Positions 1,934 to 11,668 of a stretch of 64,000 nt of DNA are shown in pieces. Positions within the stretch are counted from its first letter, which is position 1. Each line of letters starts with the position of its first letter. A program made the translations under genes and the position numbers. The notes beneath the pieces are model-generated. The model was not told the DNA's origin and did not search any database. It saw only the letters and a program-made list of their open reading frames with translations. Source of the DNA: Eubacterium sp. (GTDB taxonomy: Bacteria; Bacillota; Clostridia; Oscillospirales; Acutalibacteraceae); contig JAFLRZ010000010.1 in assembly GCA_022511225.1 (NCBI GenBank), positions 1-64,000 of the forward strand, given 5' to 3'.

Positions 1934-3301
1934 ATGGCTAAAGCAAAAACAGTTTACATATGTAGTGTTTGTGGATATGAGTCGCCTAAATGGTTTGGTA
2001 AATGCCCCGGCTGCGGCGAATGGAACACAATGAATGAAGAAATGCAGAACTCTTCTAATTCGTCAACTAACGAGATAGGGAAGAGTGCCGTTAATCATGT
2101 AATGGCACTTAATGATATCACTGAGGATGTTGAAAAAAGAATACACACTAATATAAAAGAATTTGACAGAGTCCTCGGTGGTGGAATTGTACTTGGAAGC
2201 CTTACCCTTATAAGTGGTGATCCCGGAATAGGTAAGTCAACAATACTTTTACAGGCTTGCGAAAGTTTGGGAAAAACAAATAAAATACTATACGTAAGCG
2301 GTGAGGAATCGGCCACTCAGATTAAAATGCGTGCAAACAGGCTCAACGTAACCACCAATAATCTGCTTATTTTACCCGAAACTGACGTATCTGCAATCAT
2401 TGAAGTAATTAAACAAGAAAAGCCTAATATTGTAATAATCGACTCGATACAGACAATGGTTTACGAGGAAATATCATCTTCAGCGGGTTCAGTCACACAG
2501 GTCAGAGAATGCACCAACATCTTTATGCATGCTGCTAAAGGCTTAGGTATTCCGATATTTGTAGTAGGTCACGTGAACAAAGACGGTGGCATCGCAGGTC
2601 CTAAAGTTCTTGAGCATATTGTAGATACAGTGCTATATTTTGAAGGCGAAAAGAATTATTCATACAGAATACTTCGCGGAGTAAAAAACAGATTTGGCTC
2701 GACTAATGAAATCGGAGTCTTTGAAATGACTTCAGAAGGTCTTAAGGAAGTTATTAACCCATCTCTTATGATGATTTCAGGAAGACCTAAAAACGCCTCA
2801 GGAACGTGTGTAGCGTGCGTTATGGAAGGAAGCAGACCGATTTTAGCTGAGGTACAAGGACTTGTCTGTGCAACAGGTTTTGGAACTCCAAGAAGAATGA
2901 GTACGGGATTTGATTATAACAGAATGAGTATGCTCATTGCCGTACTTGAGAAAAAAGCAGGATACTATTTTAATAATATGGATGCTTATATAAACGTTGT
3001 TGGCGGTATGAAGCTTGACGAACCTGCGGCGGACTTAACAGTAGCATTATCTCTTGTTTCTTCTTTGAAAGAGAAAGCAGTTGATGAAAAAATTATAGCA
3101 TTCGGTGAAGTTGGACTTGCCGGAGAGATTCGGGCAGTTAATCACTGTGAGCAAAGAGTATCCGAAGCATTAAGACTTGGCTTTGAAAAATGTATAATTC
3201 CTTTTCATAATTACAAGAGTCTATCAAAACAGTTAAAAATAGATATAGAAATCGTTCCCGTAAGAACAATCCGAGAAGCGTTTTCAGCACTTGATGAGTA
3301 G
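1934..3301 (+). CDS. radA: DNA repair protein RadA
   Basis: RadA/Sms of 455 residues, a RecA-like branch-migration ATPase for recombination intermediates. In order it has an N-terminal C4 zinc finger (CSVCG...CPGCG, residues 10-30), a Walker A motif GDPGIGKST near residue 95, the RadA-specific KNRFGS motif near residue 250, and a C-terminal Lon-like domain. Full length. It starts directly after the cwlD stop (TAAATG). The filamentous-phage attachment site begins 46 bp past its stop codon, so the gene itself is not disrupted. Confidence 0.97.
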   Translation: MAKAKTVYICSVCGYESPKWFGKCPGCGEWNTMNEEMQNSSNSSTNEIGKSAVNHVMALNDITEDVEKRIHTNIKEFDRVLGGGIVLGSLTLISGDPGIGKSTILLQACESLGKTNKILYVSGEESATQIKMRANRLNVTTNNLLILPETDVSAIIEVIKQEKPNIVIIDSIQTMVYEEISSSAGSVTQVRECTNIFMHAAKGLGIPIFVVGHVNKDGGIAGPKVLEHIVDTVLYFEGEKNYSYRILRGVKNRFGSTNEIGVFEMTSEGLKEVINPSLMMISGRPKNASGTCVACVMEGSRPILAEVQGLVCATGFGTPRRMSTGFDYNRMSMLIAVLEKKAGYYFNNMDAYINVVGGMKLDEPAADLTVALSLVSSLKEKAVDEKIIAFGEVGLAGEIRAVNHCEQRVSEALRLGFEKCIIPFHNYKSLSKQLKIDIEIVPVRTIREAFSALDE

Positions 3302-3346: not shown

Positions 3347-3375
3347 ACTCCCCTAAATTATACAAAATATTAATT
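3347..3375 (+). repeat. attL: left copy of the 29-bp direct repeat
   Basis: The 29 bases match 10580-10608 exactly. Identity breaks at both outer edges (3346 a versus 10579 c; 3376 a versus 10609 t). The copy contains left arm ATTATACAAAA (3357-3367) and spacer TATTAA (3368-3373) of the dif-like site. The right arm here is degenerate (TTATTCAATTT, 3374-3384), as expected if it came from the phage. Confidence 0.88.
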
Positions 3376-3608
3376 ATTCAATTTAGCCGTTTGTCTGTCC
3401 TTTTGGTAGGGTAGTCCGACGGCTTTTGTTTTGCCTTTTAACTGTTGCTTGTGGTATGTGTTGCCTCTTTAATGGTGTAGGTCGGACTTAGTTTTGATAC
3501 TTTTCTAAAAAGTATATTTAGCAAATAGGAGTTGCTCCTGCGTGGTTGGTCTTGCACTACAAATTCGACTTTGTTGAAGCGTTGCCTTTATCCCGCCTTA
3601 TTTAGCAT
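3376..3608. other. Non-coding left end of the prophage with several stem-loops
   Basis: No convincing gene was found here. Visible structures are AGCCGT (3385-3390) pairing with ACGGCT (3419-3424) followed by TTTTGTTTT; an 8-bp perfect hairpin ATACTTTT-CTA-AAAAGTAT (3497-3515); and AGGAG-TTG-CTCCT (3527-3539). Inovirus genomes carry a packaging hairpin in an intergenic region, so one of these could be the packaging signal. That role is inferred from position only. Confidence 0.5.
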
Positions 3609-3637
3609 AAAAAGACACCTTAAAGGTGTCTTTTTTT
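3609..3637. terminator. Rho-independent terminator at the left end of the prophage
   Basis: A long perfect stem, AAAAAGACACCTT against AAGGTGTCTTTTT, is flanked by A and T runs on both sides, so it can work in either direction. On the minus strand it would end transcripts from the repressor operon. On the plus strand it would shield the phage from radA read-through. Confidence 0.8.
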
Positions 3638-3659
3638 ATTGTTCTTATTGCATAGAATT

Positions 3660-3692
3660 ATCAATTGCGTTACTACGACTTACGCAATTGAT
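3660..3692 (+). other. Predicted double-strand origin (nick site) for rolling-circle replication
   Basis: A perfect 11-bp stem, ATCAATTGCGT (3660-3670) and ACGCAATTGAT (3682-3692), presents an 11-base loop that begins TACTACGAC (3671-3679). TACTACG/AC is the nick sequence recognised by RepB of the pMV158 plasmid family, and the Rep at 4590-5219 looks like that family. The predicted nick falls between 3677 and 3678. The origin is about 0.9 kb from rep, on the far side of the repressor genes. Origin and initiator were recognised independently and agree. Confidence 0.82.
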
Positions 3693-3781
3693 GTGTCAAA
3701 CAAAAAATAGGGCTCAAAGTACCGAAATTACGGCAAAAAAAGTTGACACAAGTTTTTTAAATTTCTTGTGTCATGTGTCAA
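3691..3781. repeat. TGTGTCA repeats next to the origin, candidate Rep-binding sites
   Basis: ATGTGTCAA occurs at 3691-3699 and again at 3773-3781, with a further TGTGTCA at 3767-3773. An inverted copy TGACACAAG (3744-3752) pairs with CTTGTGTCA (3765-3773) around a 12-base A/T loop. pMV158-type origins carry direct-repeat Rep-binding loci beside the nick hairpin, which suggests the same role. The inverted pair could also serve as a terminator for the minus-strand gene ending at 3784. Confidence 0.5.
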
Positions 3782-3783
3782 GA

Positions 3784-4077
3784 TTATTTTAATTTTCTTG
3801 CTGATTCCTCAAATCCTGTAAATCCTATAAAGAAAGTAAAGAACGATATTATTATTTGATAATCTCCCAAAAAATCTAATGTAATTTTATTGAATAATGC
3901 AAGTCCTGATATTATGCAAATAACAATAGATATAATCATTGTTATTATTTTTTTAGTTCTTTTTTTCTTTCTCTTTTTTATTGAGTTATTTATACTTTCG
4001 TTTATTTCTTCTTTTGTTTCTAATATTTCTTCGTAATAATCATTGCCATTATTATCTTGTTTTTTAATTAATTTCAT
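3784..4077 (-). CDS. Small membrane protein in the phage repressor operon
   Basis: This 97-residue protein is of unrecognised family. The N-terminal half is very hydrophilic (acidic, then the Lys/Arg run KKRKKKRTKK at about 36-45). Two hydrophobic helices follow (about 46-65 and 73-90) and a short basic tail, so a cytoplasmic N-terminal domain on a two-helix membrane anchor is predicted. GGAGATAAAG precedes the ATG. The gene follows the repressor by 11 bases and should be expressed in the lysogen. A superinfection-exclusion or immunity role is possible from position but unproven. Confidence 0.75.
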   Translation of the reverse strand: MKLIKKQDNNGNDYYEEILETKEEINESINNSIKKRKKKRTKKIITMIISIVICIISGLALFNKITLDFLGDYQIIISFFTFFIGFTGFEESARKLK

Positions 4078-4088
4078 TCTTTATCTCC

Positions 4089-4310
4089 TTATTTTTCTTC
4101 TATTATTTGTATTTCTGTTAAATAGTCTATTGTGGTCTTGTAATGCTTTGCTAATTCTAATAAAATGTGTACTGGTATTTCTGTCTCTCCTTTTTCATAT
4201 CTTCTGTATTGCGTTGTATGTAAGTTAAGTTTCTTTGCAACATCTTCTTGCGTTAAATCGTTATCTTCTCTTAAGTCTTGTACTCTTTGATATATATATC
4301 TTACTTTCAT
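4089..4310 (-). CDS. XRE-family (Cro/CI-like) phage repressor
   Basis: A DNA-binding protein of 73 residues that is almost only a helix-turn-helix domain. The core LTQEDVAKKLNLHTTQYRRYEKGETEIPV followed by a helix with LLELAKHY is the classical HTH_3 pattern. The ATG at 4310 has AGGTGAT just upstream and is preferred to a GTG three codons earlier. It faces away from rep, and three palindromic operators fill the divergent promoter region. It is therefore the likely controller of phage replication genes. Confidence 0.9.
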   Translation of the reverse strand: MKVRYIYQRVQDLREDNDLTQEDVAKKLNLHTTQYRRYEKGETEIPVHILLELAKHYKTTIDYLTEIQIIEEK

Positions 4311-4339
4311 TTTTATCACCTATTATTTTATAACATAAA

Positions 4340-4401
4340 AACACAAATTTGTGTTGACAATCACACAATATTGTGTTATTATTTAATCACACAAAAGTGT
4401 G
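4340..4401. promoter_or_regulatory. Divergent promoter region with three palindromic operators
   Basis: Three related palindromes are visible: AACACAAATTTGTGTT (4340-4355), ACACAATATTGTGT (4363-4376) and CACAC-AAAA-GTGTG (4388-4401). The rep promoter is TTGACA (4354-4359), a 17-base spacer and TATTAT (4377-4382), and the second operator sits inside that spacer. A minus-strand -35 TTGTCA (4355-4360) with -10 TATGTT 17 bases on can drive the repressor, with the first operator in its spacer. Shared half-site ACACAA and position next to an XRE repressor gene support a negative, self-limiting switch. Confidence 0.82.
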
Positions 4402-4414
4402 TTATTGAAAAAAG

Positions 4415-4564
4415 CACAACAGCTTCCAACTGTTGTGGCAGGTTAGCAGTGGACACCGTAAGAGCTCTTAAAACACTGCGTTAAAACATTCCTCTCCATT
4501 TCTTTATACAAGGTCACGCGCAACCTTAGGCTTTAAGCCTTAAATGCGCGACTTTGGAGAGAAT
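4415..4564 (+). promoter_or_regulatory. Structured rep mRNA leader (hairpins; possible attenuator, sso or antisense target)
   Basis: Downstream of the rep promoter lie a perfect 8-bp hairpin CACAACAG/CTGTTGTG (4415-4437) and a large nested stem. In the latter, ATTCCTCTCCA (4488-4498) pairs with TGGAGAGAAT (4555-4564), CAAGGTCACGCGCA (4509-4522) pairs with TGCGCGACTTTG (4545-4556), and an inner AGGCT/AGCCT hairpin sits at 4528-4540. AAGGT (4510-4514) can instead pair with ACCTT (4523-4527), giving two competing folds. Such a leader could attenuate rep, be an antisense-RNA target, or act as single-strand origin or packaging signal. The sequence does not decide. Confidence 0.55.
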
Positions 4565-4589
4565 ATAATAATATTTAGGAGAGTGAAGA

Positions 4590-5219
4590 ATGTCAGCTAA
4601 AAAAACACGAAATCCGAGGGGTAGGGTATTTTGTTTAGTTCTCTATCCTGAAAATGAAGAACACCAAAGGGTTATAGACTTGCTTAAACGCAGTTATAAT
4701 ATCCTCGGTATTTGTCACGATAGAGATACATACGAAGAAGATAATGAAGAAACTGGCGCAGTAAAAGGGGAGCGTAAGAAGTTACATCACCATATTATTG
4801 TTAAGTTTGAAAATGCTCGCTATCTTGTCGCTTTATCTAATGAGCTTGACTGTGAGCCTAATCTAATACAAAAGGTTGATAGCTTCGAGGGTATGGCAAA
4901 GTATTTGTTACATACTGATTACCCACAGAAAGCAAGATATCAAAAGTGTGAGCTTTACGGCTTGCTTATTGATGAAGCTATAAAAGTGCTTGATAAGAAG
5001 TCTGCTGATGTACAGTTATGTGAGATAATTGAGTTTTTGCAAAAATCACGTTATTTGCTTCCGTTTCCCGCTTTTATCACTTGGTTATGTACTAATGGCT
5101 ATTATAGTACTTATAGAGCTAACTACTCAGCTATAAAAGACTGTTATTACTATTATCAGGGTCGTTATCTTGAAAAAGAGGCAAGAGAAAATGACTTAAG
5201 AAAGTTTAGAGGCGATTAA
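4590..5219 (+). CDS. rep: Rolling-circle replication initiator, pMV158 RepB-like (Rep_2 family)
   Basis: An HUH endonuclease of 209 residues that nicks the phage origin and starts rolling-circle replication. The N-terminus has VFCLVLYPENEEH followed by ILGICHDRD, matching the pMV158 RepB pattern of a LYPE strand then a HDKD strand. The metal-binding HUH motif is KLHHHIIVKF (about residues 65-74). The likely nucleophile Tyr is in MAKYLLHTDYP (about 110). RepB of pMV158 is 210 residues, so length agrees. GGAG lies 9 bases upstream. Ordinary inoviruses often use other Rep types, so this plasmid-type initiator is notable. The matching nick site is at 3671-3679. Confidence 0.9.
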   Translation: MSAKKTRNPRGRVFCLVLYPENEEHQRVIDLLKRSYNILGICHDRDTYEEDNEETGAVKGERKKLHHHIIVKFENARYLVALSNELDCEPNLIQKVDSFEGMAKYLLHTDYPQKARYQKCELYGLLIDEAIKVLDKKSADVQLCEIIEFLQKSRYLLPFPAFITWLCTNGYYSTYRANYSAIKDCYYYYQGRYLEKEARENDLRKFRGD

Positions 5220-5288
5220 ATGAGTTTTTTATTGATTTATTGTTGTATTTTTCCATTGTTAGTTTGTTTAATTGTTGATAAAGATTGA
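5220..5288 (+). CDS. 22-residue hydrophobic peptide overlapping the rep stop
   Basis: The reading frame starts at TAAATG (stop of rep, then ATG) and encodes MSFLLIYCCIFPLLVCLIVD plus two residues, essentially one transmembrane helix. Translation could be coupled to rep. No family is recognised. It could also be a chance frame, although the tight start/stop coupling is the same style as the rest of this operon. Confidence 0.4.
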   Translation: MSFLLIYCCIFPLLVCLIVDKD

Positions 5289-5297
5289 GGTTTTTAA

Positions 5298-5474
5298 ATG
5301 AGAGTTAATATAAATATGAATCGTGATTTATTATCAAAAATTGATGATATATGCGAGGAGCTCTATATTTCTCGTTCTTCGTTTATTATGCTATGTTGTT
5401 CTGAGTATATTAACGTTCGTAAGTATGTTTTTGATAATGATTTAAGTAAGCGTTTGGTGGTGGTTGAAAAATGA
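5298..5474 (+). CDS. CopG-like ribbon-helix-helix protein
   Basis: This 58-residue protein reads as a ribbon-helix-helix DNA-binding fold. A short beta strand (RVNINMNRDLL) is followed by helix A (SKIDDICEELY), the turn ISRSS and helix B (FIMLCCSEYI), the Arc/CopG pattern. It follows rep in the same operon. In pMV158 the RHH protein CopG represses the repB promoter, so copy-number control is the natural inference, although here the gene is downstream rather than upstream of rep. A T-rich leader with GAGG lies before the ATG. Confidence 0.75.
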   Translation: MRVNINMNRDLLSKIDDICEELYISRSSFIMLCCSEYINVRKYVFDNDLSKRLVVVEK

Positions 5475-5635
5475 CACTATTTACAATTTATTTGCTAATT
5501 TCGGGAATATGTTTCCCATTTAGTCTTGTGTTTGTCGTTAAGTGGTTTTGCCATCAACACTATGTAAAAAAGCAAGTACAAGATATTATTAAATACGAAG
5601 AAAGGAGTGAAGACAATGCCTCAGAGAGAACTTAA
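5471..5635 (+). CDS. Small one-TM protein between the RHH and ssDNA-binding-like genes
   Basis: A 54-residue frame overlaps the RHH stop (AATGAC) and runs 20 bases into the next gene. Residues 3-27 are a hydrophobic helix (FTIYLLISGICFPFSLVFVV). The rest is polar and charged (VKKQVQDIIKYEERSED). It is predicted to sit in the membrane with a cytoplasmic tail. No family is recognised. Overlap on both sides is typical of compact phage operons. Confidence 0.5.
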   Translation: MTLFTIYLLISGICFPFSLVFVVKWFCHQHYVKKQVQDIIKYEERSEDNASERT

Positions 5636-5834
5636 GTTTATATTCAGTAAGCCGTATAATTTTACTGATAATGGTAAGAGAGTTACAGGTATTACTTGTC
5701 AGTGTTACGATCCTGTTGATAAGTCTATTGTTAAGGTTAAAACAAATCATCTTGTTGATGCTGACTTAGGTGATGATATTCTTGTTGATGTCGAAATTAA
5801 AGGCAGATATGTTAATTACAAAATTGCTGAATAA
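5616..5834 (+). CDS. Probable phage single-stranded-DNA-binding protein (gene V-like), 72 residues
   Basis: A small soluble protein with alternating beta-strand-like segments (ELKFIFSKPYNF, VTGITCQCYD, SIVKVKTNHLV, DILVDVEIKGRYVNYKIA) and no long hydrophobic stretch, as in a one-domain OB fold. Filamentous phages encode a 70-100 residue ssDNA-binding protein between Rep and the coat genes, exactly this position. AAAGGAG sits 8 bases before the ATG at 5616, which is preferred to the upstream GTG at 5607. The assignment rests on size, strand pattern and position; there is no diagnostic motif. Confidence 0.55.
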   Translation: MPQRELKFIFSKPYNFTDNGKRVTGITCQCYDPVDKSIVKVKTNHLVDADLGDDILVDVEIKGRYVNYKIAE

Positions 5835-5841
5835 TGAGGAG

Positions 5842-5873
5842 GGGAGAGGTTAACTCTCCCTTTCTGTCTTTTT
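5842..5873 (+). terminator. Terminator or attenuator between replication and structural genes
   Basis: A 7-bp G/C-rich stem, GGGAGAG/CTCTCCC with loop GTTAA (5842-5860), is followed by TTTCTGTCTTTTT. It lies between the ssDNA-binding-like gene and the adsorption-like gene. It would reduce read-through from the replication module into the structural module. Confidence 0.75.
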
Positions 5874-5884
5874 AGAGGTGAAAT

Positions 5885-7006
5885 ATGAAATTATTAAAAA
5901 AAATAATTCCTTTTGTATTATCTTTTCTAATAGTTTTTTGTTCTCTTCCTTTTACCGCTTCTGCTGCTTCCGTTAATGCTAATTATTTTGATTATTGGGA
6001 AGCTTACTATTCTGGTGGGAACGATTATTTTAATGATGTTGTAGATAGTTCTTCTTATCCGGGTTATAAGTCTTGTTATAAATCTAATGTATCGGGTACT
6101 TTACGAAGATTTTATATAGAACATTTTGATTATAATAAGGACGGTACAGATTTTAAACTTAATAAAGGTGATAGTTTTAATGCTGAGCTTTATACAACTC
6201 CAAATACTCGTTTTGCTTCTTTTTCACCTGAAATTTTATTTTATTGTGTCGATTCATCCGGTGTTCGTTTAGTTTCTTTTGATGGTTCTTTTGATAGAAG
6301 TACGGGCAAAATATCCTTTAGTGGTACTATGCCGTTTCAATATGACAAAACTATCTTAGCACGTATCGCATTTAATAATGTAACAGATACAAGCACTTCA
6401 AGTGTATTTCAATTTGTTTTCAAAAACTTTTCTATTGATGTTGAATCCGAGCAAAGCGGTTTTTTTGATTCAGTAAAGCAAGCATTTAGTAATTTATGGC
6501 AATGGCTACAAAACATACTAAATTCTATTAAAGAGATCCCCTCAAAAATAGGTGAAGCTTTAAGCAATTTATCAAACAATATTAAAGGTTTCTTTACTGA
6601 TTTAGGTAATAATTTAAATTCTTGGTTTGCTGATATAGGTAATTGGTTTTCAACTCTTGGTGATAATATAAAAGGCTTCTTTGCAAACTTAGCCGATAAT
6701 ATATCGGGTTTTTTCGAAAAGCTTTGGAATCGTATTTGGTGGGGTAATGAAAACGGTGAGAGCGATTACGAAAAGCCTGTTATAAATAATAAGCTTAATG
6801 ATATTCTTGCTACCCTTAACGATTATCAAAATAATCTGAAAGGCACTATCGACAGTATCAGTAAGTCAGCTAATGAAGTGAGTACATATATTTCTACTGG
6901 CACAGAATTAGTAAACGGAATTATAAACGTTGCCGGAGCTGGAATAACTGCATTATTAGTATTCGGTATTGTGTTTATCCTTGCCAGAAAGGTGGTAGGT
7001 CGATGA
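5885..7006 (+). CDS. pIII-like phage adsorption / minor coat protein candidate
   Basis: A secreted, membrane-anchored protein of 373 residues. A signal peptide of about 28 residues ends at TASAAS. Next comes a Tyr/Ser/Asp-rich extracellular domain to about residue 180. An amphipathic stretch follows that repeats about every 11 residues (for example LSNNIKGFFTD, LGNNLNSWFAD, IKGFFANLADN; about 228-283). The C-terminal helix (GIINVAGAGITALLVFGIVFIL) ends with a short basic tail. Signal peptide, ectodomain and C-terminal anchor in that order, upstream of a Zot ATPase, is the layout of inovirus pIII. Receptor and exact function are unknown. Confidence 0.72.
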   Translation: MKLLKKIIPFVLSFLIVFCSLPFTASAASVNANYFDYWEAYYSGGNDYFNDVVDSSSYPGYKSCYKSNVSGTLRRFYIEHFDYNKDGTDFKLNKGDSFNAELYTTPNTRFASFSPEILFYCVDSSGVRLVSFDGSFDRSTGKISFSGTMPFQYDKTILARIAFNNVTDTSTSSVFQFVFKNFSIDVESEQSGFFDSVKQAFSNLWQWLQNILNSIKEIPSKIGEALSNLSNNIKGFFTDLGNNLNSWFADIGNWFSTLGDNIKGFFANLADNISGFFEKLWNRIWWGNENGESDYEKPVINNKLNDILATLNDYQNNLKGTIDSISKSANEVSTYISTGTELVNGIINVAGAGITALLVFGIVFILARKVVGR

Positions 7007-7233
7007 AGTACATAATTGATTATATCGTTGTATTTTTTGATTGGCTTATTCAGCTTTTTACTGATGTGTTTCTTCTCTTATGGAATGTCATTTTGATACT
7101 TATTGAAGCTGGCAAATTTCTCATATCCGTTATTTCCTCAATGCCTACTATCGTTATCGTTCCCGCCATTGCGTTAGTGATATGTTGTATCTTATATAAA
7201 GTACTCGGTAGGGAAGGGGGCGAAGCTTCATGA
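7003..7233 (+). CDS. Small phage membrane protein, 76 residues (pVI-like position)
   Basis: The start overlaps the preceding stop (ATGA). Two long hydrophobic segments (about 4-40 and 46-66) are followed by a short polar tail (GREGGEAS). The position directly after the pIII-like gene and the strongly hydrophobic nature parallel gene VI of Ff phages, but sequence similarity cannot be shown by eye. Confidence 0.7.
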   Translation: MKYIIDYIVVFFDWLIQLFTDVFLLLWNVILILIEAGKFLISVISSMPTIVIVPAIALVICCILYKVLGREGGEAS

Positions 7234-7379
7234 CAGTTAATGAGCTTGTAAACTTATTCAAAATTGCATTTGACTTGTTGTGGTCTTCTAAAATTCTCGG
7301 TATGCCATATTTATTCTGGTTTGTTGTAGTTGCTTTATTTGGAATTGTATTTAGTTTTATAAAAGGAAAGAAAGAATGA
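7230..7379 (+). CDS. Small one-TM phage protein, 49 residues
   Basis: Start and stop both overlap neighbours as ATGA, indicating translational coupling. An amphipathic N-terminal helix (VNELVNLFKIAFDLLWSSK) is followed by MPYLFW, a TM helix (FVVVALFGIVFSFI) and a basic end (KGKKE). This order of amphipathic helix, TM, basic tail recurs in most small genes of this element and is the architecture of filamentous coat proteins. Confidence 0.7.
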   Translation: MTVNELVNLFKIAFDLLWSSKILGMPYLFWFVVVALFGIVFSFIKGKKE

Positions 7380-7900
7380 AAAAGAAATTATTGTTATTTT
7401 TGTTAACTTGTATATTTATTATTTCTGTTCCGTTCTCGGCATTAGCAGAAGATTACGGCACAGAATACCCAGCTTATATACCTTATTCAGGAGGTGCATA
7501 TATTGAGGTTCAGTCTTCCCTTGGGCGTGGGTCGCTTGTCTTTCAAGATACCTATAAAACTGGTTATTTTGGGTTTAGTGGTAGTGGGTATAATCTTTTT
7601 AATATCTCGAATAGTACTCTAACTGGTCGATTGATTATGCAAAATGGTACTACTTATCAAGCTCGTTTCAGCTCTTTTAATACGCTTCAATATTATTATG
7701 AAAGTGGTATGACTCGCGAATGGCGAGACGTTACTACTTCTAAAATTTATAACACAAACTGCGAATTTTTAGATAACACAACTAACGATCGTGGTAATAT
7801 TATTGATATTTTTTACGGTGATTCATTTAATTATAGTGTTGTTGCTTTTTTGGCGTTTATTTTAATTGTACTTATTATTATTGCTATTAAGAAAGGTTAA
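7376..7900 (+). CDS. Signal-peptide and C-terminal-TM phage surface protein, 174 residues
   Basis: A cleavable-looking signal peptide (KKKLLLFLLTCIFIISVPFSALAE) is followed by a Gly/Ser/Tyr-rich extracellular domain of about 125 residues. A C-terminal helix (VVAFLAFILIVLIIIAI) and a KKG tail end the protein. It is organised like the 373-residue protein upstream but shorter, so it may be a second minor virion protein or a tip partner. AAAGGAAAG precedes the ATG. No family is recognised. Confidence 0.75.
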   Translation: MKKKLLLFLLTCIFIISVPFSALAEDYGTEYPAYIPYSGGAYIEVQSSLGRGSLVFQDTYKTGYFGFSGSGYNLFNISNSTLTGRLIMQNGTTYQARFSSFNTLQYYYESGMTREWRDVTTSKIYNTNCEFLDNTTNDRGNIIDIFYGDSFNYSVVAFLAFILIVLIIIAIKKG

Positions 7901-7902
7901 TT

Positions 7903-8049
7903 ATGCTTATTGATTACATAACTGAGCTTATAGGCGAAGTTCCTCAGAGCCTGAGTGTTTTTGTCTATTTGATGTGTTTTTTACTTGTTCTTTTCGGACT
8001 TGTTATCATACTTAAAATTATTTCTATATTCTTTTCAAAATTTATTTAA
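7903..8049 (+). CDS. Small one-TM phage protein, 48 residues
   Basis: The protein has an N-terminal acidic/amphipathic segment (IDYITELIGEVPQSL), one long TM helix (VFVYLMCFLLVLFGLVIIL) and a Lys-containing tail ending FSKFI. It starts two bases after the previous stop. Structure and size are coat-like. It is a minor-coat or membrane-assembly candidate. Confidence 0.65.
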   Translation: MLIDYITELIGEVPQSLSVFVYLMCFLLVLFGLVIILKIISIFFSKFI

Positions 8050-8061
8050 GGGGGTTATATT

Positions 8062-8238
8062 ATGCCTTATTTATTAGCCGTCTCTTCTGCTTCTGATGCA
8101 TTATCAGAATTTACTTCTTTGTTTTCTACTGCTTGGACTTTTTTAACGAGTAACTGGTATTTTACCGTACTTATAGCTGTCCCTCTTGGCGGTTTAATTA
8201 TATCCATTGTTATGGGCGTTATTAGGAGTAACCGCTAA
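8062..8238 (+). CDS. Coat-like one-TM phage protein, 58 residues
   Basis: AAGGGGG precedes the ATG by about 8 bases. An N-terminal amphipathic segment (SSASDALSEFTSLFSTAWTFLTSNW) leads to a TM helix (FTVLIAVPLGGLIISIVMGVI) and basic end RSNR. The pattern of TxxTSN followed by a hydrophobic run with Pro, a TM and Arg/Lys also appears in the proteins at 8882-9100 and 9174-9407, so these look like paralogues. It is a good major- or minor-coat candidate. Confidence 0.75.
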   Translation: MPYLLAVSSASDALSEFTSLFSTAWTFLTSNWYFTVLIAVPLGGLIISIVMGVIRSNR

Positions 8239-8405
8239 TGGATAGGATATATTCATTATTTAATTATATTTTTGCAATTGTAAATATATTTACTCAAATT
8301 ATGGGAAGTGATTATTGGCTTTTTATGCTTATTCCTATTGTTTGTTTAGGTATATTTATAATTACTGTAATTATTCGCTTAGTTGTTAGGCAGGTGCATT
8401 ATTAG
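8238..8405 (+). CDS. Coat-like one-TM phage protein, 55 residues
   Basis: The start overlaps the previous stop (TAATG). An N-terminal helix (YSLFNYIFAIVNIFTQIMG) is followed by SDYWLFMLIP, a TM helix (IVCLGIFIITVIIRLVV) and basic end RQVHY. The order matches the neighbouring coat-like proteins. It overlaps the next gene through TAGTG. Confidence 0.7.
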   Translation: MDRIYSLFNYIFAIVNIFTQIMGSDYWLFMLIPIVCLGIFIITVIIRLVVRQVHY

Positions 8406-8860
8406 TGCTTGAATATTTTGAATATACATTTGAATTTTTAATCTCTATTCTTGCTTCAATATATGAATTTATACTTGAAAACAAAGTTATATTTGATGTT
8501 GTATTTATCGGTATTGCTGGAGCAATTATTATTCTTATTATTGACTTTATTTTTAACATTCGCGATGAATTCGGTGAATTCAATAAATTTCGTGATGAGC
8601 CGTATATGCGATATAAATATCGCTACGGAAGATATAAAAATAAAAAAGATAGATTAGATATTTACGAATTATATCGTCAAAACGTTGATTATAATCATCA
8701 AAAATCTATGGAACGATTGCATTATTATCGTGAAAGTGAAAATATACGTCACGAGCATAAACACGAAGAATTTGATATGTTTAATCAAAACAAATTAAAG
8801 CTTGATAAAGCAAAAAAGCCTAAACCTAATATTGATATTGAATATGAAGAGGATAATTAA
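8405..8860 (+). CDS. Coat-like N-terminus with a long charged cytoplasmic tail, 151 residues
   Basis: It begins with GTG overlapping the previous stop; AGGCAGGTG lies about 9 bases upstream. Residues 1-55 repeat the coat-like plan (SIYEFILENKVIFDVVF, then a TM helix). The remaining 95 residues are highly charged, with Arg/Tyr-rich RYKYRYGRYKNKKDR and an acidic end (IDIEYEEDN). Only the first part resembles its neighbours, so it may be a coat-related protein that adapts the DNA or ATPase to the membrane assembly site. Function is unknown. Confidence 0.72.
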   Translation: MLEYFEYTFEFLISILASIYEFILENKVIFDVVFIGIAGAIIILIIDFIFNIRDEFGEFNKFRDEPYMRYKYRYGRYKNKKDRLDIYELYRQNVDYNHQKSMERLHYYRESENIRHEHKHEEFDMFNQNKLKLDKAKKPKPNIDIEYEEDN

Positions 8861-8881
8861 AATTTATGAAAGGAGATTGTT

Positions 8882-9100
8882 ATGGATAGTTCTGGTGTAA
8901 GCCTTGCTACTCTTGATATCCTTATTGCAGGTATTAAAAGTGCGGTTGCTTGGATATTCGGACTTTTCAGCACTGTAGTTAATACAATTGCAAGTAATGA
9001 CTTGCTTCTGTATCCTGTGCTTCTCACAATGGTAATTGCAGCAATTAGTCTTGTTGTTGTTATCATTAAGAAGTTCGGTCTACGTCCTCGTCGCTCGTAA
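8882..9100 (+). CDS. Major coat protein candidate, 72 residues
   Basis: The ATG follows an excellent ribosome site (GAAAGGAG). An acidic/neutral N-terminus (MDSSGVSLATLDILIAG) leads into an amphipathic helix, the motif TIASNDLLLYPVL, a TM helix (TMVIAAISLVVVII) and a basic end (KKFGLRPRRS) suited to contact DNA. A strong hairpin starts in its stop codon, just as the Ff genome places its central terminator after gene VIII. There is no separate cleavable signal peptide. Either this or the 9174-9407 product is most likely the main filament subunit. Confidence 0.75.
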   Translation: MDSSGVSLATLDILIAGIKSAVAWIFGLFSTVVNTIASNDLLLYPVLLTMVIAAISLVVVIIKKFGLRPRRS

Positions 9101-9137
9101 GCCCAAAGGGGCTGCCGGTCAGCCCTTTGGGTTTACG
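9096..9137 (+). terminator. Strong hairpin between the two best coat genes
   Basis: CGTAAGCCCAAAGGGGCTG (9096-9114) and CAGCCCTTTGGGTTTACG (9120-9137) form an almost perfect stem around CCGGT. It overlaps the coat stop codon. There is no clean T run, so it may stabilise the coat mRNA or partly terminate it, favouring coat expression over the downstream ATPase. Confidence 0.75.
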
Positions 9138-9173
9138 GCTTAGTTGTTATTATTTATGAAAGGGGGTTATTCC

Positions 9174-9407
9174 TTGGGCTCTATTTTAGGCGCTATTACT
9201 GTTGAGAATGTTTTCAGCTCTCTTAAGACTGTATTTGAGCTTGTTATGGATCAGTTCTCTACTACTGTTACTACTATAACAAGCAATCCACTTCTTTTCG
9301 TTCCCGTTCTTTGTGGCTTCGGTGGTGGTCTCATTCTCATCGGTGTTAAGGTTATGCGTAGATTTGGTGTTAAGGGTATGTCTTCAGGCAAAAGAAGACG
9401 TAGATAA
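9174..9407 (+). CDS. Second major-coat-like protein, 77 residues
   Basis: The start chosen is TTG at 9174, which has AAAGGGGG seven bases upstream; the in-frame TTG at 9144 has no ribosome site. The protein has an amphipathic helix (VFSSLKTVFELVMDQF), the motif TTITSNPLLFVPVL, a Gly-rich TM helix (CGFGGGLILIGVKVM) and a strongly basic tail (RRFGVKGMSSGKRRRR). It is clearly parallel to the product of 8882-9100 (IASNDLLLYPVL, KKFG). The Arg-rich end could neutralise DNA inside the filament. Confidence 0.75.
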   Translation: MGSILGAITVENVFSSLKTVFELVMDQFSTTVTTITSNPLLFVPVLCGFGGGLILIGVKVMRRFGVKGMSSGKRRRR

Positions 9408-9415
9408 AATAAATA

Positions 9416-9443
9416 GGGGAGTGGCAACGCTCCCCGTTCTTCA
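9416..9443 (+). terminator. GNRA-loop hairpin after the second coat gene
   Basis: Stem GGGGAGTG/CGCTCCCC with tetraloop GCAA (9416-9435) is followed by GTTCTTC. It lies 8 bases after the coat stop. Together with 9096-9137 it brackets the second coat gene, so each coat mRNA could be processed or terminated separately from the assembly genes. Confidence 0.7.
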
Positions 9444-9454
9444 TTGGTGTATAT

Positions 9455-9610
9455 ATGGAATTTATAAAAACTTTATTCAAATTATTTAATTATATTTTTG
9501 TATCAGCTTTTAAGTTTGAGCCTATTATATTGCTATTTTCTATATTTTGTATTTTTTGTATGCTTCTTTGCATTGTACAGTCTTTTTTTAGGGGGTCTTA
9601 TACAAAGTGA
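9455..9610 (+). CDS. Small one-TM phage protein before the ATPase, 51 residues
   Basis: A basic amphipathic N-terminus (EFIKTLFKLFNYIFVSAFKF) is followed by EPIILLF and a long TM helix (SIFCIFCMLLCIVQSFF), ending RGSYTK. It overlaps the ATPase start by GTGA. Classical pI carries its own C-terminal TM, which the ATPase downstream lacks. This coupled TM protein could anchor it, but that is inference. Confidence 0.65.
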   Translation: MEFIKTLFKLFNYIFVSAFKFEPIILLFSIFCIFCMLLCIVQSFFRGSYTK

Positions 9611-10326
9611 ATATATTTAACTATTCTTTGTCAAAACACTGTTTAGAGCCTTACTGTACGATTGTTACCGGCGATAAAGGAGCAGGTAAGTCAACCTTGT
9701 TTGCTCTTATAATTGAAGCGTGTAAAAAAGCTGGTCTTGACGTTTATTGTCAATATCCATATAAAGATTGCTATCAAATTCCGTTATGTGAACATAGGAC
9801 TAAAGACGGCTATACTTATCTTGATGTAGATAAACAATGGCTATATAATTATGATTTTAATGATTGTGTTCTTCTTATAGATGAAGCAAAAACATTATGG
9901 CCAGCTCGTGGCTATGCAAATTGGTCTATGCAAGATGAACAGTTTTTCAATTTTATAAGGCATAATAATGTCCGTGTATTCTTAGCTACTCAAGCGTATG
10001 ACGGTCTTGACTTAAATATTAAGCGTGCTTCTGATGAAGTATGGTATTTAACTAAAGGATTCTTACATTTTACTCATATTGAAACATCACATACTACATT
10101 ATGCAAAGTTGCAGATAAACAAACTGAAGTACAAGGTAGAATGTTTAAGAAAGGTATGCGTAAAATAGCTTGGGATGTTTGTGAAGTTCCTCTTAAAAAT
10201 TATCATTTTTGGCGTCGAAGCTATTACGGAAAATTTATTACCGATTTTATATTTGGTGAGAAAGAAAAACCTGAGTCAATTCTTTGGGATAATGTTATCG
10301 ACTGGAATACTCAAAAAATAAGGTGA
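9607..10326 (+). CDS. Zot/pI-family assembly ATPase
   Basis: A P-loop ATPase of 239 residues that in filamentous phages drives extrusion of the virion through the membrane. Walker A is GDKGAGKST (about residues 22-30). Walker B is CVLLIDEA (about 95-102), followed by FIRHNNVRVFLATQAYDGLD, the sensor-like segment typical of the Zot domain. GTG start with TAGGGGG upstream. No TM helix is visible at the C-terminus (NVIDWNTQKIR), unlike Ff pI or Vibrio Zot, so it covers only the cytoplasmic part. It is the hallmark gene for calling this element inovirus-like. Confidence 0.92.
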   Translation: MNIFNYSLSKHCLEPYCTIVTGDKGAGKSTLFALIIEACKKAGLDVYCQYPYKDCYQIPLCEHRTKDGYTYLDVDKQWLYNYDFNDCVLLIDEAKTLWPARGYANWSMQDEQFFNFIRHNNVRVFLATQAYDGLDLNIKRASDEVWYLTKGFLHFTHIETSHTTLCKVADKQTEVQGRMFKKGMRKIAWDVCEVPLKNYHFWRRSYYGKFITDFIFGEKEKPESILWDNVIDWNTQKIR

Positions 10327-10331
10327 TACTT

Positions 10332-10529
10332 ATGTTGATTAAAGATATTGATATACATAAAATTGAAAAGCTACTTAGTTCTGTACCTGATAATTTAGAA
10401 TGTGAGTCAATATATTTTGTCGGTAAAACATATCAGCTCAAGCTTATAGCTGGCAGTGATGAAGTACACGCTCACGAAAAATCTTTAGCATTGGCAGAGC
10501 TACAGAAGCTTCTTGAAAATTTTGTATAA
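10332..10529 (+). CDS. Small soluble phage protein of unknown function, 65 residues
   Basis: The ATG at 10332 has AAGGTG six bases upstream and is preferred to the GTG at 10323. The product is a mixed alpha/beta sequence (IDIHKIEKLLSSVPDNL, SIYFVGKTYQLKLIAG, KSLALAELQKLLENF) without a TM or cysteines. It is the last gene of the phage operon. Its 3' end overlaps the first TTTTGTATAA repeat. I do not recognise the family. Confidence 0.65.
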   Translation: MLIKDIDIHKIEKLLSSVPDNLECESIYFVGKTYQLKLIAGSDEVHAHEKSLALAELQKLLENFV

Positions 10530-10541
10530 CTTTTGTATAAT
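10520..10541 (+). repeat. Tandem 11-bp repeats TTTTGTATAAC / TTTTGTATAAT
   Basis: Two head-to-tail copies (10520-10530 and 10531-10541) differ in one base. The second copy is identical to the right arm of the dif-like site at 10607-10617. They lie inside the phage, about 50 bp from its right end, and could be accessory recombinase-binding arms. The first copy spans the stop codon of the preceding gene. Confidence 0.7.
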
Positions 10542-10579
10542 AATGAAAATATGTAATTTATTCGATTTTTCGTTATTTC

Positions 10580-10608
10580 ACTCCCCTAAATTATACAAAA
10601 TATTAATT
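10580..10608 (+). repeat. attR: right copy of the 29-bp direct repeat
   Basis: Identical over 29 bases to 3347-3375. It contains the left arm and spacer of the dif-like dyad and the first two bases of its right arm. Chromosomal sequence resumes on the right. Confidence 0.88.
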
Positions 10609-10617
10609 TTGTATAAT
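10590..10617 (+). other. dif-like Xer recombination site (perfect 11-6-11 dyad)
   Basis: Left arm ATTATACAAAA (10590-10600), spacer TATTAA (10601-10606) and right arm TTTTGTATAAT (10607-10617). The arms are exact reverse complements, and the 28-bp 11-6-11 geometry is that of dif sites. Its right end lies 73 bp before the xer start codon. In other single-recombinase Xer systems (XerS/difSL, XerH/difH) the site is also next to the gene. The bases differ from the usual Bacillus-type dif, so the label is functional inference. Confidence 0.72.
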
Positions 10618-10644
10618 TGTATTAAGAATTTTATAGCATATAAT
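10617..10644 (+). promoter_or_regulatory. Candidate xer promoter abutting the dif-like site
   Basis: TTGTAT (10617-10622), 16 bases, then TATAAT (10639-10644). The -35 touches the right arm of the dif-like dyad, so recombinase bound there could repress its own gene. Phage insertion leaves this promoter on the xer side. Confidence 0.5.
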
Positions 10645-10690
10645 AACTACTTCCCTCTACGATAATTGACTTGAAAGGATTTAACGTTTT

Positions 10691-11668
10691 ATGCGTAAAG
10701 AAGAATTTGTAACTTTACCAAAGCTTGTACAGCAATACTTATCTTACATAGAAGCTATTAAAAATCATAGCGAATTGTCTGTACTTGAATATGCTTCTGA
10801 TTTAAGAACTTTTTTTAGATTTTTGGCAAAGCATAAAGGATTGTGCCCCGCTGACACTGATGAAGAAAAAATTGATTTATCCCCTATCGATTTAGCATTT
10901 ATACAGAATGTAGACCTATATGATGCATATCAATTTATTATATACTGTAAAAATGAGCGAAACAACAGCGATTCGACAAGGGCAAGACGAGTAGTTGCTA
11001 TCAGAAGATTTTACTCATACCTTACAGATAATCTTGGGTTGCTTGAAGTTAATCCTATGAAAACTCTCGATGCCCCAAGAACTAAAAAATCGCTTCCTAA
11101 GTTTTTGACTCTTGAGGAAGCAGAAAAATTATTATCAGTCATTGACGGTAAATATAAAGAGCGTGACTATGCTATAATTACCCTTTTTCTTAACTGTGGT
11201 ATGAGATTAAGTGAACTTGTTTCAATTGATTACTCAGACATAAAGGCTGACGGCTCTGTTGTTATCACCGGAAAAGGAAATAAAGAACGAACTGTATACC
11301 TGAATCAAGCGTGCATTAACGCAATTACGGCATATTTGAAGGTAAGACCGAATGACGGAGTTAAAGACAGAGCACTGTTTTTAAGCTCTCGAAATCAGCG
11401 GATTAGCGCCAAAACTGTTCAACATATAGTTTATTCATATCTTGATAAAGCAGGATTTGGCGACAGAGGTTTGTCTGTACACAAACTTCGTCACACAGCT
11501 GCTACTCTGATGTACAGACACGGAAACGTCGACCTGCTATTACTCAAAGAAATTCTCGGGCACGAAAACTTAGGTACTACGGAAATCTACACACACATTG
11601 CAGATGATGCTGCTAAAAAAGCTATTGAATCAAATCCCCTTGCAGATGCATCTCCTAAATGGCAATAA
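10691..11668 (+). CDS. xer: Xer-type tyrosine recombinase (chromosomal XerC/XerD family)
   Basis: Site-specific recombinase of 325 residues. An N-terminal SAM-like DNA-binding domain (about 1-125) precedes the catalytic domain. Catalytic Arg is in GMRLSEL (about 178), Lys in GKGNKERTV (about 200), HxxR in VHKLRHTAATL (about 270), His in LGHENLG (about 293) and Tyr in EIYTH (about 302). It lies outside the prophage repeats and next to a spoIIM-like gene, a neighbourhood known for xerD in Firmicutes, so it looks chromosomal. It is the only recombinase in the window and the best candidate for dimer resolution and phage integration. The ORF is slightly longer than typical XerD because of an insertion near residues 50-70. 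Confidence 0.88.
   Translation: MRKEEFVTLPKLVQQYLSYIEAIKNHSELSVLEYASDLRTFFRFLAKHKGLCPADTDEEKIDLSPIDLAFIQNVDLYDAYQFIIYCKNERNNSDSTRARRVVAIRRFYSYLTDNLGLLEVNPMKTLDAPRTKKSLPKFLTLEEAEKLLSVIDGKYKERDYAIITLFLNCGMRLSELVSIDYSDIKADGSVVITGKGNKERTVYLNQACINAITAYLKVRPNDGVKDRALFLSSRNQRISAKTVQHIVYSYLDKAGFGDRGLSVHKLRHTAATLMYRHGNVDLLLLKEILGHENLGTTEIYTHIADDAAKKAIESNPLADASPKWQ

Follow-up and report, generated by a model that had tools for sequence, protein, structure and literature searches.

The 64-kb window (the whole stretch of DNA analysed, 64,000 nucleotides) contains a perfect dyad, ATTATACAAAA-TATTAA-TTTTGTATAAT, at positions 10590..10617 of the plus strand, with an 11-6-11 layout. The dyad is very probably the chromosomal dif site, because it lies upstream of xer in 35 of the 37 near relatives considered and, in one relative, 1.5 kb from the GC-skew maximum. 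It also serves as the right attachment site (attR) of a 7.2-kb insert which, judged by its genes and its ends, is an inovirus in a Gram-positive gut lineage and belongs to the integrase-less elements that exploit host Xer (IMEX). The reading of the locus as dif, Xer and an IMEX is held with high confidence. The explanation that we consider the best for the whole is also probable: in the [Eubacterium] coprostanoligenes group Xer would act as a single recombinase with the dyad as its dif, and the insert would be an inovirus put there by the host Xer. The analysis is based on sequence only, mostly on metagenome-assembled genomes.

At up to three mismatches the dyad is the single match both in the window (none in 100 shuffles) and in the entire 2.2-Mb genome, a draft of 48 contigs, so that at this threshold and in this draft it is a 28-bp two-arm site present once per chromosome. 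There is no other perfect 11-6-11 dyad within the 64-kb window, and a perfect dyad arises in 12 of 20,000 dinucleotide shuffles of the 156-nt host interval obtained by joining the window flanks. The dyad ends 73 bp before the ATG of an intact gene of 325 codons encoding a Xer tyrosine recombinase (10691..11668, plus strand). Both the exact dyad with its TATTAA spacer and its distance to a complete Xer gene had been claimed in the first-pass annotation of this DNA. The upstream neighbour of the locus is the host gene radA (1934..3301, plus strand; Pfam match), orthologs of which are found 5' of dif in relatives. An empty radA-xer interval of about 125 bp with one dyad had been predicted; the dyad is indeed there, but the joined window flanks give 156 bp. 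The interval is approximately 134 bp long in the type strain E. coprostanoligenes ATCC 51222 (locus L063), where the site is empty.

The organism was placed in the [Eubacterium] coprostanoligenes group, and strain ATCC 51222 is among its named near relatives. The latter are defined here as the 37 named loci whose Xer shares 71% or more identity with that of the window, and are not all congeneric: locus L107 matches G149, a genome of another genus of the same family. At the same identity, a Xer ortholog is present in 58 of the 80 congeneric genomes (the window's included), often with radA upstream. The two near-relative loci where the dyad was not seen 5' of xer have only 4 and 191 nt of upstream sequence. 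The dyad precedes xer also in 29 of 43 more distant named loci, many others of which have little upstream sequence; no dif was found in the 1.0-5.4 kb of upstream sequence of L087, L096, L105 and L108, and in L103 the dyad is 2.2 kb upstream. The common form of dif, read towards xer, is ATTATACAAAA-TNAATR-TTTTGTATAAT-nnAGGGGAG. In one clade both arms have changed together (ATTTCGCAAAA...TTTTGCGAAAT), and therefore the dyad is kept as a dyad.

In 29 named near-relative loci radA, dif and xer are on one contig. These include 21 empty sites, with the dyad present and less than 450 bp between radA and dif, as anticipated for relatives lacking the phage. Four loci are occupied by elements with att repeats, three were put in neither class, and one is rearranged. 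Gaps of 0.9-1.1 kb in L049, L050 and L075, in which no att repeat was detected, were left unclassed. Locus L076 was considered as an occupied site and rejected, as its 7.8-kb radA-dif gap, judged from translations, reads as host rnf-type genes.

A location near the replication terminus had been proposed for checking by GC skew. In the relative G041 (three contigs), the cumulative skew, computed over 392 kb, has its maximum at 981.0 kb, with dif located at 979.47 kb, that is, at the skew switch. In the window itself both the skew and the gene orientation shift near 11-12 kb, and the cumulative maximum is at 21 kb, with only 10 kb of sequence to the left of dif. The dif site very probably lies directly upstream of xer at the replication terminus, with a putative role in dimer resolution together with FtsK, the gamma domain of which is encoded in the genome. 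The word AGGGGAG has an 11:0 leading to lagging ratio in G041. The GGGGAG flank of dif was considered as an FtsK polar motif and rejected, since G-rich words show a skew in any case, and the flank is directed away from dif.

The window Xer scores below the NCBIfam equivalog cut-offs for XerC (209.3 against 335.15 bits), XerD (196.1 against 329.6) and archaeal XerA (200.4 against 220), as well as below the XerS cut-off (154.2 against 267). Among PDB chains it matches XerD and XerA (116.3 and 103 bits) better than XerH (62.8 bits). In the XerS/difSL system of streptococci and the XerH/difH system of epsilonproteobacteria, one recombinase is genetically linked to its own dif, according to the relevant parts of PMC5357621 and PMC2731167. 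The parallel with these systems, drawn in the first-pass annotation, is correct in that the recombinase adjoins its site. However, given that the protein fails the XerC, XerD, XerA and XerS cut-offs and XerH is not its closest match, this is an analogy and not membership. The site differs as well, being a 28-bp perfect palindrome, whereas difSL as described there has 31 bp.

A separate XerC/XerD pair was sought in the 80 congeneric genomes, and none of them encodes a protein above the curated XerD or XerC cut-off, although these are strict, only 4 and 2 of 14 control genomes passing them, respectively. Matches below the cut-offs occur in 62 of the 80 genomes and mostly are the window-type Xer; the highest score in an XerD-like group of patchy occurrence is 246 bits. 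The XerD-like match in the window genome (G000:C25:21348-22202), also patchy in the genus, is broken by two stops. In G052 and G063, each at least 95% complete, the window-type Xer is the only PF00589 match. The window genome has eight such matches in all; three other recombinases that were scored are below both the XerC and the XerD cut-offs, and one of them passes the XerA/integron-type cut-off (233.7 against 220). As none of the 80 genomes passes the XerC or XerD cut-off, the locus looks like a single-recombinase dif/Xer system. In G323, a genome of the same family, a protein above the XerD cut-off (332.3 against 329.6 bits) is encoded near xer, and its homologs (48-72% identical) are near xer in nine other loci, none of which are near relatives. 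The best genome-wide matches in the window genus are about 30% identical. This position of an XerD-like gene near xer in G323 and nine other loci suggests that the window genus has lost XerD. The likely series would be from two recombinases, as in some other genera, to one.

The insert is flanked by a 29-bp direct repeat, ACTCCCCTAAATTATACAAAATATTAATT, the left copy of which (3347..3375) forms the core of attL, and the right copy is at 10580..10608; both are on the plus strand, 7,233 bp apart, and the similarity extends to 41 nt at 90%. The integrase-less inovirus prophage (3376..10608, plus strand; 7,233 bp per repeat unit) was identified by this repeat, by Rep_OBD and Zot matches, and by a gene order similar to that of the free inovirus PQ006155.1. 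It encodes an HTH repressor-like phage protein (4089..4319, minus strand; Pfam, PHROGs), a replication protein with the Rep_OBD domain (4590..5219, plus strand; PF01719, E 4.2e-13) and a Zot/pI morphogenesis ATPase (9607..10326, plus strand; PF05707, E 1.1e-7), the latter being 81% identical in G029 and 74.5% identical in PQ006155.1. A 373-aa protein (5885..7006, plus strand), whose family matches are of the low-complexity type only, is probably a virion or membrane protein, as it has a signal-like start, a terminal hydrophobic stretch and a suitable position. The last phage gene before the right end is a 68-aa ORF that belongs to no family (10323..10529, plus strand), and there is a row of short, mostly hydrophobic ORFs. 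The Zot/pI ATPase, the replication protein and small membrane proteins within 4-12 kb are the gene set of Inoviridae, the phage being known here from its genes. No recombinase family was detected among 19 phage ORFs compared with PHROGs and seven compared with Pfam at E up to 0.1, some small ORFs being outside the scan; in this scope the phage has no recombinase of its own, as had been claimed.

The attL site (3357..3384, plus strand) consists of the intact arm ATTATACAAAA, the spacer TATTAA and a poor arm TTATTCAATTT. This bears out the earlier reconstruction, in which attB has the perfect dyad, and attP has the same left arm and spacer and a poor right arm. Host Xer would recombine attP with dif, and since attP retains one arm and the spacer, a perfect dif would be left beside xer and a defective one at the far end. 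With no detected recombinase, a dif-like attP and a location at dif, the element is of the host-Xer-exploiting type, as first proposed; host Xer would carry out its recombination.

Similar elements (inoviruses, Rep-only and plasmid-like ones) were found at dif in nine other genomes or contigs, once as a tandem array. Repeats of the att type are seen at dif in G029, L055, L069, L070 and L044. The inovirus-type elements among these are those of G029, where attL and attR lie on separate contigs, of L055/G079 and of L070; Zot-type matches were obtained for L070 and L055 as well. In L097 and L131 an inovirus-type element adjoins dif and its left end was not seen, and the element of G339 is probably split over two contigs. 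Locus L044 contains a 2.7-kb Rep_1 element. A 2.3-kb Rep_OBD element in L069 (7318..9621), in which no Zot-like ORF was seen, is possibly a satellite of inoviruses. In G323, on a 3.4-Mb contig, two tandem 5,635-bp inovirus copies, which do not differ at any of the 5618 nucleotides compared, occupy dif, and a Rep_1 element comes next, between dif and xer. Tandem arrays are known for CTXphi as well. The Rep_1 element of G323 spans L182 and then L192 (14151..18548 in joined numbering) and is followed by a right half-dif and a hairpin. Thus the rule that elements are always upstream of dif holds for the inoviruses seen and was rejected in general. A 172-aa ORF of this element and a 121-aa ORF of the L044 element resemble, by eye, the C-terminal part of a tyrosine recombinase.

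The free circular inovirus PQ006155.1 from rodent faeces, filed under Inoviridae, has DNA matches to the window phage and its genes in a similar order. The stretch that separates its last late gene from the repressor contains ATTTCGCAAAA-TTGATA, a poor arm and a hairpin of -21.8 kcal/mol. This is the half-site expected for hosts with the ATTTCGC-type dif. An exact arm of any of the four types arises in 43 of 20,000 shuffles of this region, which was chosen after the fact. It is the only half-dif among ten free inovirus genomes, none being found in the nine others. The same threshold yields 24 hits in 200 shuffled genomes, and thus about one chance match is expected among the free genomes. The half-dif of PQ006155.1 is suggestive of a genuine one, the sole argument in its favour being the exact arm in the position predicted. 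No relative turned up when IMG/VR was searched with the Zot-type proteins of the window, L070 and L055, and the GGGGAG-half pattern was not found there either. A loose pattern of promoter and arm retrieved 16 contigs; 15 were dropped, as they have other sequence past the arm, in several cases a tRNA gene, and the sixteenth is L131 (IMGVR_UViG_3300011772_000016). This record, filed as viral, contains host xer and an XerD-like gene beside the inovirus at dif.

Beyond what the first-pass annotation had noticed, there is a layout of candidate promoters and terminators at dif and at the element ends. In most near relatives a putative sigma-A-type promoter (TTGACA-N17-TAYAAT) aimed at xer overlaps a dif arm, and in those with the forward orientation of dif the last two bases of the TAYAAT-like box are the first two bases of the arm. 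Of 29 near-relative loci, 19 have TTGACA (at most one mismatch) at a spacing of exactly 17 nt, and none has it at spacers 13-16 and 18-21; in ten loci (one masked) the motif is missing. This count omits L047, L052 and L062 (short), L074 (dif found later), and L063 and L076 (reversed), and includes five occupied loci. The more distant loci have TTGACA at 17 nt in 8 of 29 cases and once at spacer 20. A hairpin with a T tail lies between radA and dif in 17 of 19 element-free loci, and in 16 of them its energy is -11.6 kcal/mol or better. In the dif-xer interval, 13 of the 19 have no hairpin at -6 or better, and six have one, from -6.4 to -13.0 (L078); such hairpins occur also in three of six occupied loci (L055 at -14.3). 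Because the hairpins are mostly between radA and dif, and fewer are between dif and xer, xer would most simply be transcribed through dif; some loci do not fit. In L063 no terminator was found between radA and xer. The dif-xer interval of the window has a weak promoter-like pair of its own, with three of six positions matching at -35.

A strong terminator-like hairpin is found 10-30 nt inside the left end of all eight elements for which this end is visible, with energies from -14.2 to -17.8 kcal/mol. In the six elements compared with 60 shuffles, no shuffle equalled the real hairpin; G323 and G339 have a score only. In the window phage this is a hairpin of -17.8 kcal/mol with an interrupted stem and a T-rich tail (3385..3432, plus strand), which a stricter consensus terminator scan omits. 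At the opposite end, a promoter-like sequence TTGAAA-N17-TATAAT (10513..10541, plus strand), matching 11 of 12 consensus positions, is aimed at xer. It is tied for the best of 39 such sites in 7.8 kb; the shuffle mean is 39.4, and so promoter-like sites are no more frequent in this region than expected by chance. Shuffling of the 122-nt phage end of the window produces a match in 29 of 500 cases. The right-end promoter is at dif-27, overlapping dif, in seven of ten elements and at dif-77 in the window phage. As L131, G323 and G339 were found via the promoter pattern, the unbiased count is four of seven. Shuffling of such right ends produces a match in 2 to 35 of 500 cases, and one of the ten ends has a match on its minus strand. 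The right ends of L044 and L097 have no promoter. In G029 and G339 both the phage and the host sides have near-consensus boxes at 17 nt, and the spacer letters differ.

One possibility is that integration exchanges the promoter of xer. In most near relatives xer would be driven by a promoter that shares part of its -10 box with the dif arm. An element at dif would sever this promoter from xer, the left-end terminator of the element would halt the severed promoter (in the window, read-through from radA), and the promoter at its other end would take over xer. In hosts with reversed dif, xer may depend on radA read-through; the phage terminator would then block this transcription, and the promoter of the phage would take its place. 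Such a swap may be functional, though we would put its chances just short of even, since the stricter scan omits the window hairpin and the free-phage match is only suggestive. Still more tentatively, integration may be a promoter swap acting on the recombinase itself: the promoter that reads through dif into xer would overlap the arm that Xer binds, with dif doubling as an operator, and unrelated ssDNA elements may have converged on a terminator, a promoter and a half-dif. If so, an integrase-less virus would control the only enzyme able to integrate and excise it and to resolve host chromosome dimers. The idea thus made testable is that dif can be an operator of its own recombinase gene, and that viruses at dif would inherit the control.

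Alternatively, the phage may be an ordinary IMEX integrated by Xer, the promoter and terminator being incidental: in the phage circle the terminator would close the late operon, and the flank resembling a promoter would be a conserved remnant or have some other use. This simpler account is plausible, if somewhat doubtful. In the window phage, L070 and PQ006155.1 attP is indeed preceded by the last late gene and followed by the hairpin, in the place where an operon terminator is expected. The absence of a promoter at L044 and L097 also agrees with it, as does L070, where the host side of attL lacks a promoter though the phage has one. On the other hand, in the circular form the promoter would soon meet the hairpin, located about 10-35 nt from the half-dif, and would thus have no evident use except after integration. 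Moreover, in G029 and G339 near-consensus boxes are kept on both sides despite different spacer letters.

Integration might also follow the CTXphi route, in which folded single-stranded phage DNA provides the recombinable half-site, here through an inverted TTTTGTATAAT 48 nt from the attP arm. An extra dif-arm-like TTTTGTATAAT is indeed present in the window (10531..10541, plus strand), with a near copy TTTTGTATAAC at 10520..10530 (the two together occupying 10520-10541), and it ends 48 nt before dif. The same 11-mer is at the same distance in the G029 phage (L057, 988..998), where the intervening sequence is unrelated. However, a second arm at 48 nt is seen in only two of eight right ends examined. 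At up to one mismatch none was found within 160 nt in L055, L069, L070, L044, L097 and L131, and by eye, by which folding was judged, no folded partner was seen for the spacer and the second arm. We consider this route unlikely.

A tyrosine recombinase beside a repeat is usual in mobile elements, and from the layout alone xer could be a part of one, the dyad being its att site and not dif. This is highly improbable given the presence of the ortholog in most congeneric genomes, often with radA upstream, the position of dif at the skew switch in G041, and the two nearly complete genomes where this Xer is the only PF00589 match. Equally improbable is recombination in trans by a recombinase of another element, or homologous recombination via the 29-bp repeat: the genome does encode eight PF00589 proteins, one above the XerA/integron-type cut-off, but the three scored besides this Xer fall below the XerC/XerD cut-offs, the shared sequence stops in or beside the dif spacer at the junctions seen, and unrelated elements have only the half-dif in common.

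The window dif is reversed relative to xer as compared with 33 of the 35 named near-relative loci. Inverted sites were observed in three loci: the window (10590-10617), L063 (9940-9967) and L076 (9874-9901). In the Xer tree these belong to three different supported clades, whose other members have forward dif where it is seen; hence flips of dif are probably recurrent. The program's count of orientation changes, with unlabelled rows left out, needs two changes and is forced to only one. As L063 is inverted and empty, the phage is not needed for inversion. The window phage retains the GGGGAG-side half and not the promoter-side half, and therefore a perfect dif is still beside xer.

The closest described phages are CTXphi, VGJphi and TLCphi of Vibrio, integrase-less filamentous IMEX phages at dif, and in TLCphi attP has one dif arm and the central region, the other arm being divergent (both as presented in the relevant part of PMC5357621). 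The window phage likewise is integrase-less, of the filamentous type and located at dif, being known here from its genes. The comparison with CTXphi made in the first-pass annotation is right as regards the IMEX type; as for anatomy, the window attP resembles TLCphi as described there more than it does CTXphi with its folded attP. Unlike the Vibrio systems, the hosts here are Gram-positive, dif is beside xer, no XerC/XerD pair was detected, and attP carries promoter- and terminator-like sequences. The nearest single-recombinase case found, going by the part of PMC9765430 used here, is LME-1/XerL of Legionellales, where a dif-mimic element leaves one intact and one modified dif. The element and the host phylum are different, and that part of the account has no promoter replacement and notes dif-xer adjacency for a Coxiella plasmid only.

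Inoviruses of Gram-positive gut bacteria have been described in Enterocloster (PMC10061712) and by Roux et al. 2019 (PMC6813254), in the sections used here as prophages flanked by direct repeats, and are thus the same kind of virus as the window phage with the same kind of flanks. Words beginning with "Xer" are absent from the main text of the former, and the whole words "Xer", "dif" and "XerC" from that of the latter. Replacement of the promoter of a host gene beside the attachment site is described for the HK022 prophage at torS in the relevant passage of PMC6814406; HK022, however, encodes an integrase of its own, and the affected gene is that of a sensor kinase and not of the recombinase on which the phage depends. 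Among the literature matches listed, nothing was on point for inoviruses, Xer and dif in Firmicutes or Gram-positives, and nothing except HK022 for overlap of the xer promoter with dif or for promoter replacement. The present observations define a putative dif/Xer system in a largely uncultured group of Clostridia and suggest how inoviruses that lack an integrase are likely to integrate in Gram-positive gut bacteria. Among named strains, E. coprostanoligenes ATCC 51222 has an empty site.

Several minor features of the loci were observed. In L080, L083 and L095, forming one outer clade with a degenerate right arm, there is an extra copy of ATTATACAAAA just to the right of dif. Locus L048 (JAMPEQ010000006.1) is from a metagenome-assembled genome labelled Bacteroides sp. 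and is probably mislabelled, as its xer groups with Clostridia near the window. The record MT839262.1 (L211) from human faeces, filed as a bacteriophage, was set aside, as it opens with a host dif-xer locus. Two nucleotides past the right arm of dif there is an AGGGGAG-like motif, exact in 38 of 63 loci, with xer starting 20-759 bp away. This motif may be an old ribosome-binding site of xer, because in MT839262.1 the gene starts just after it.
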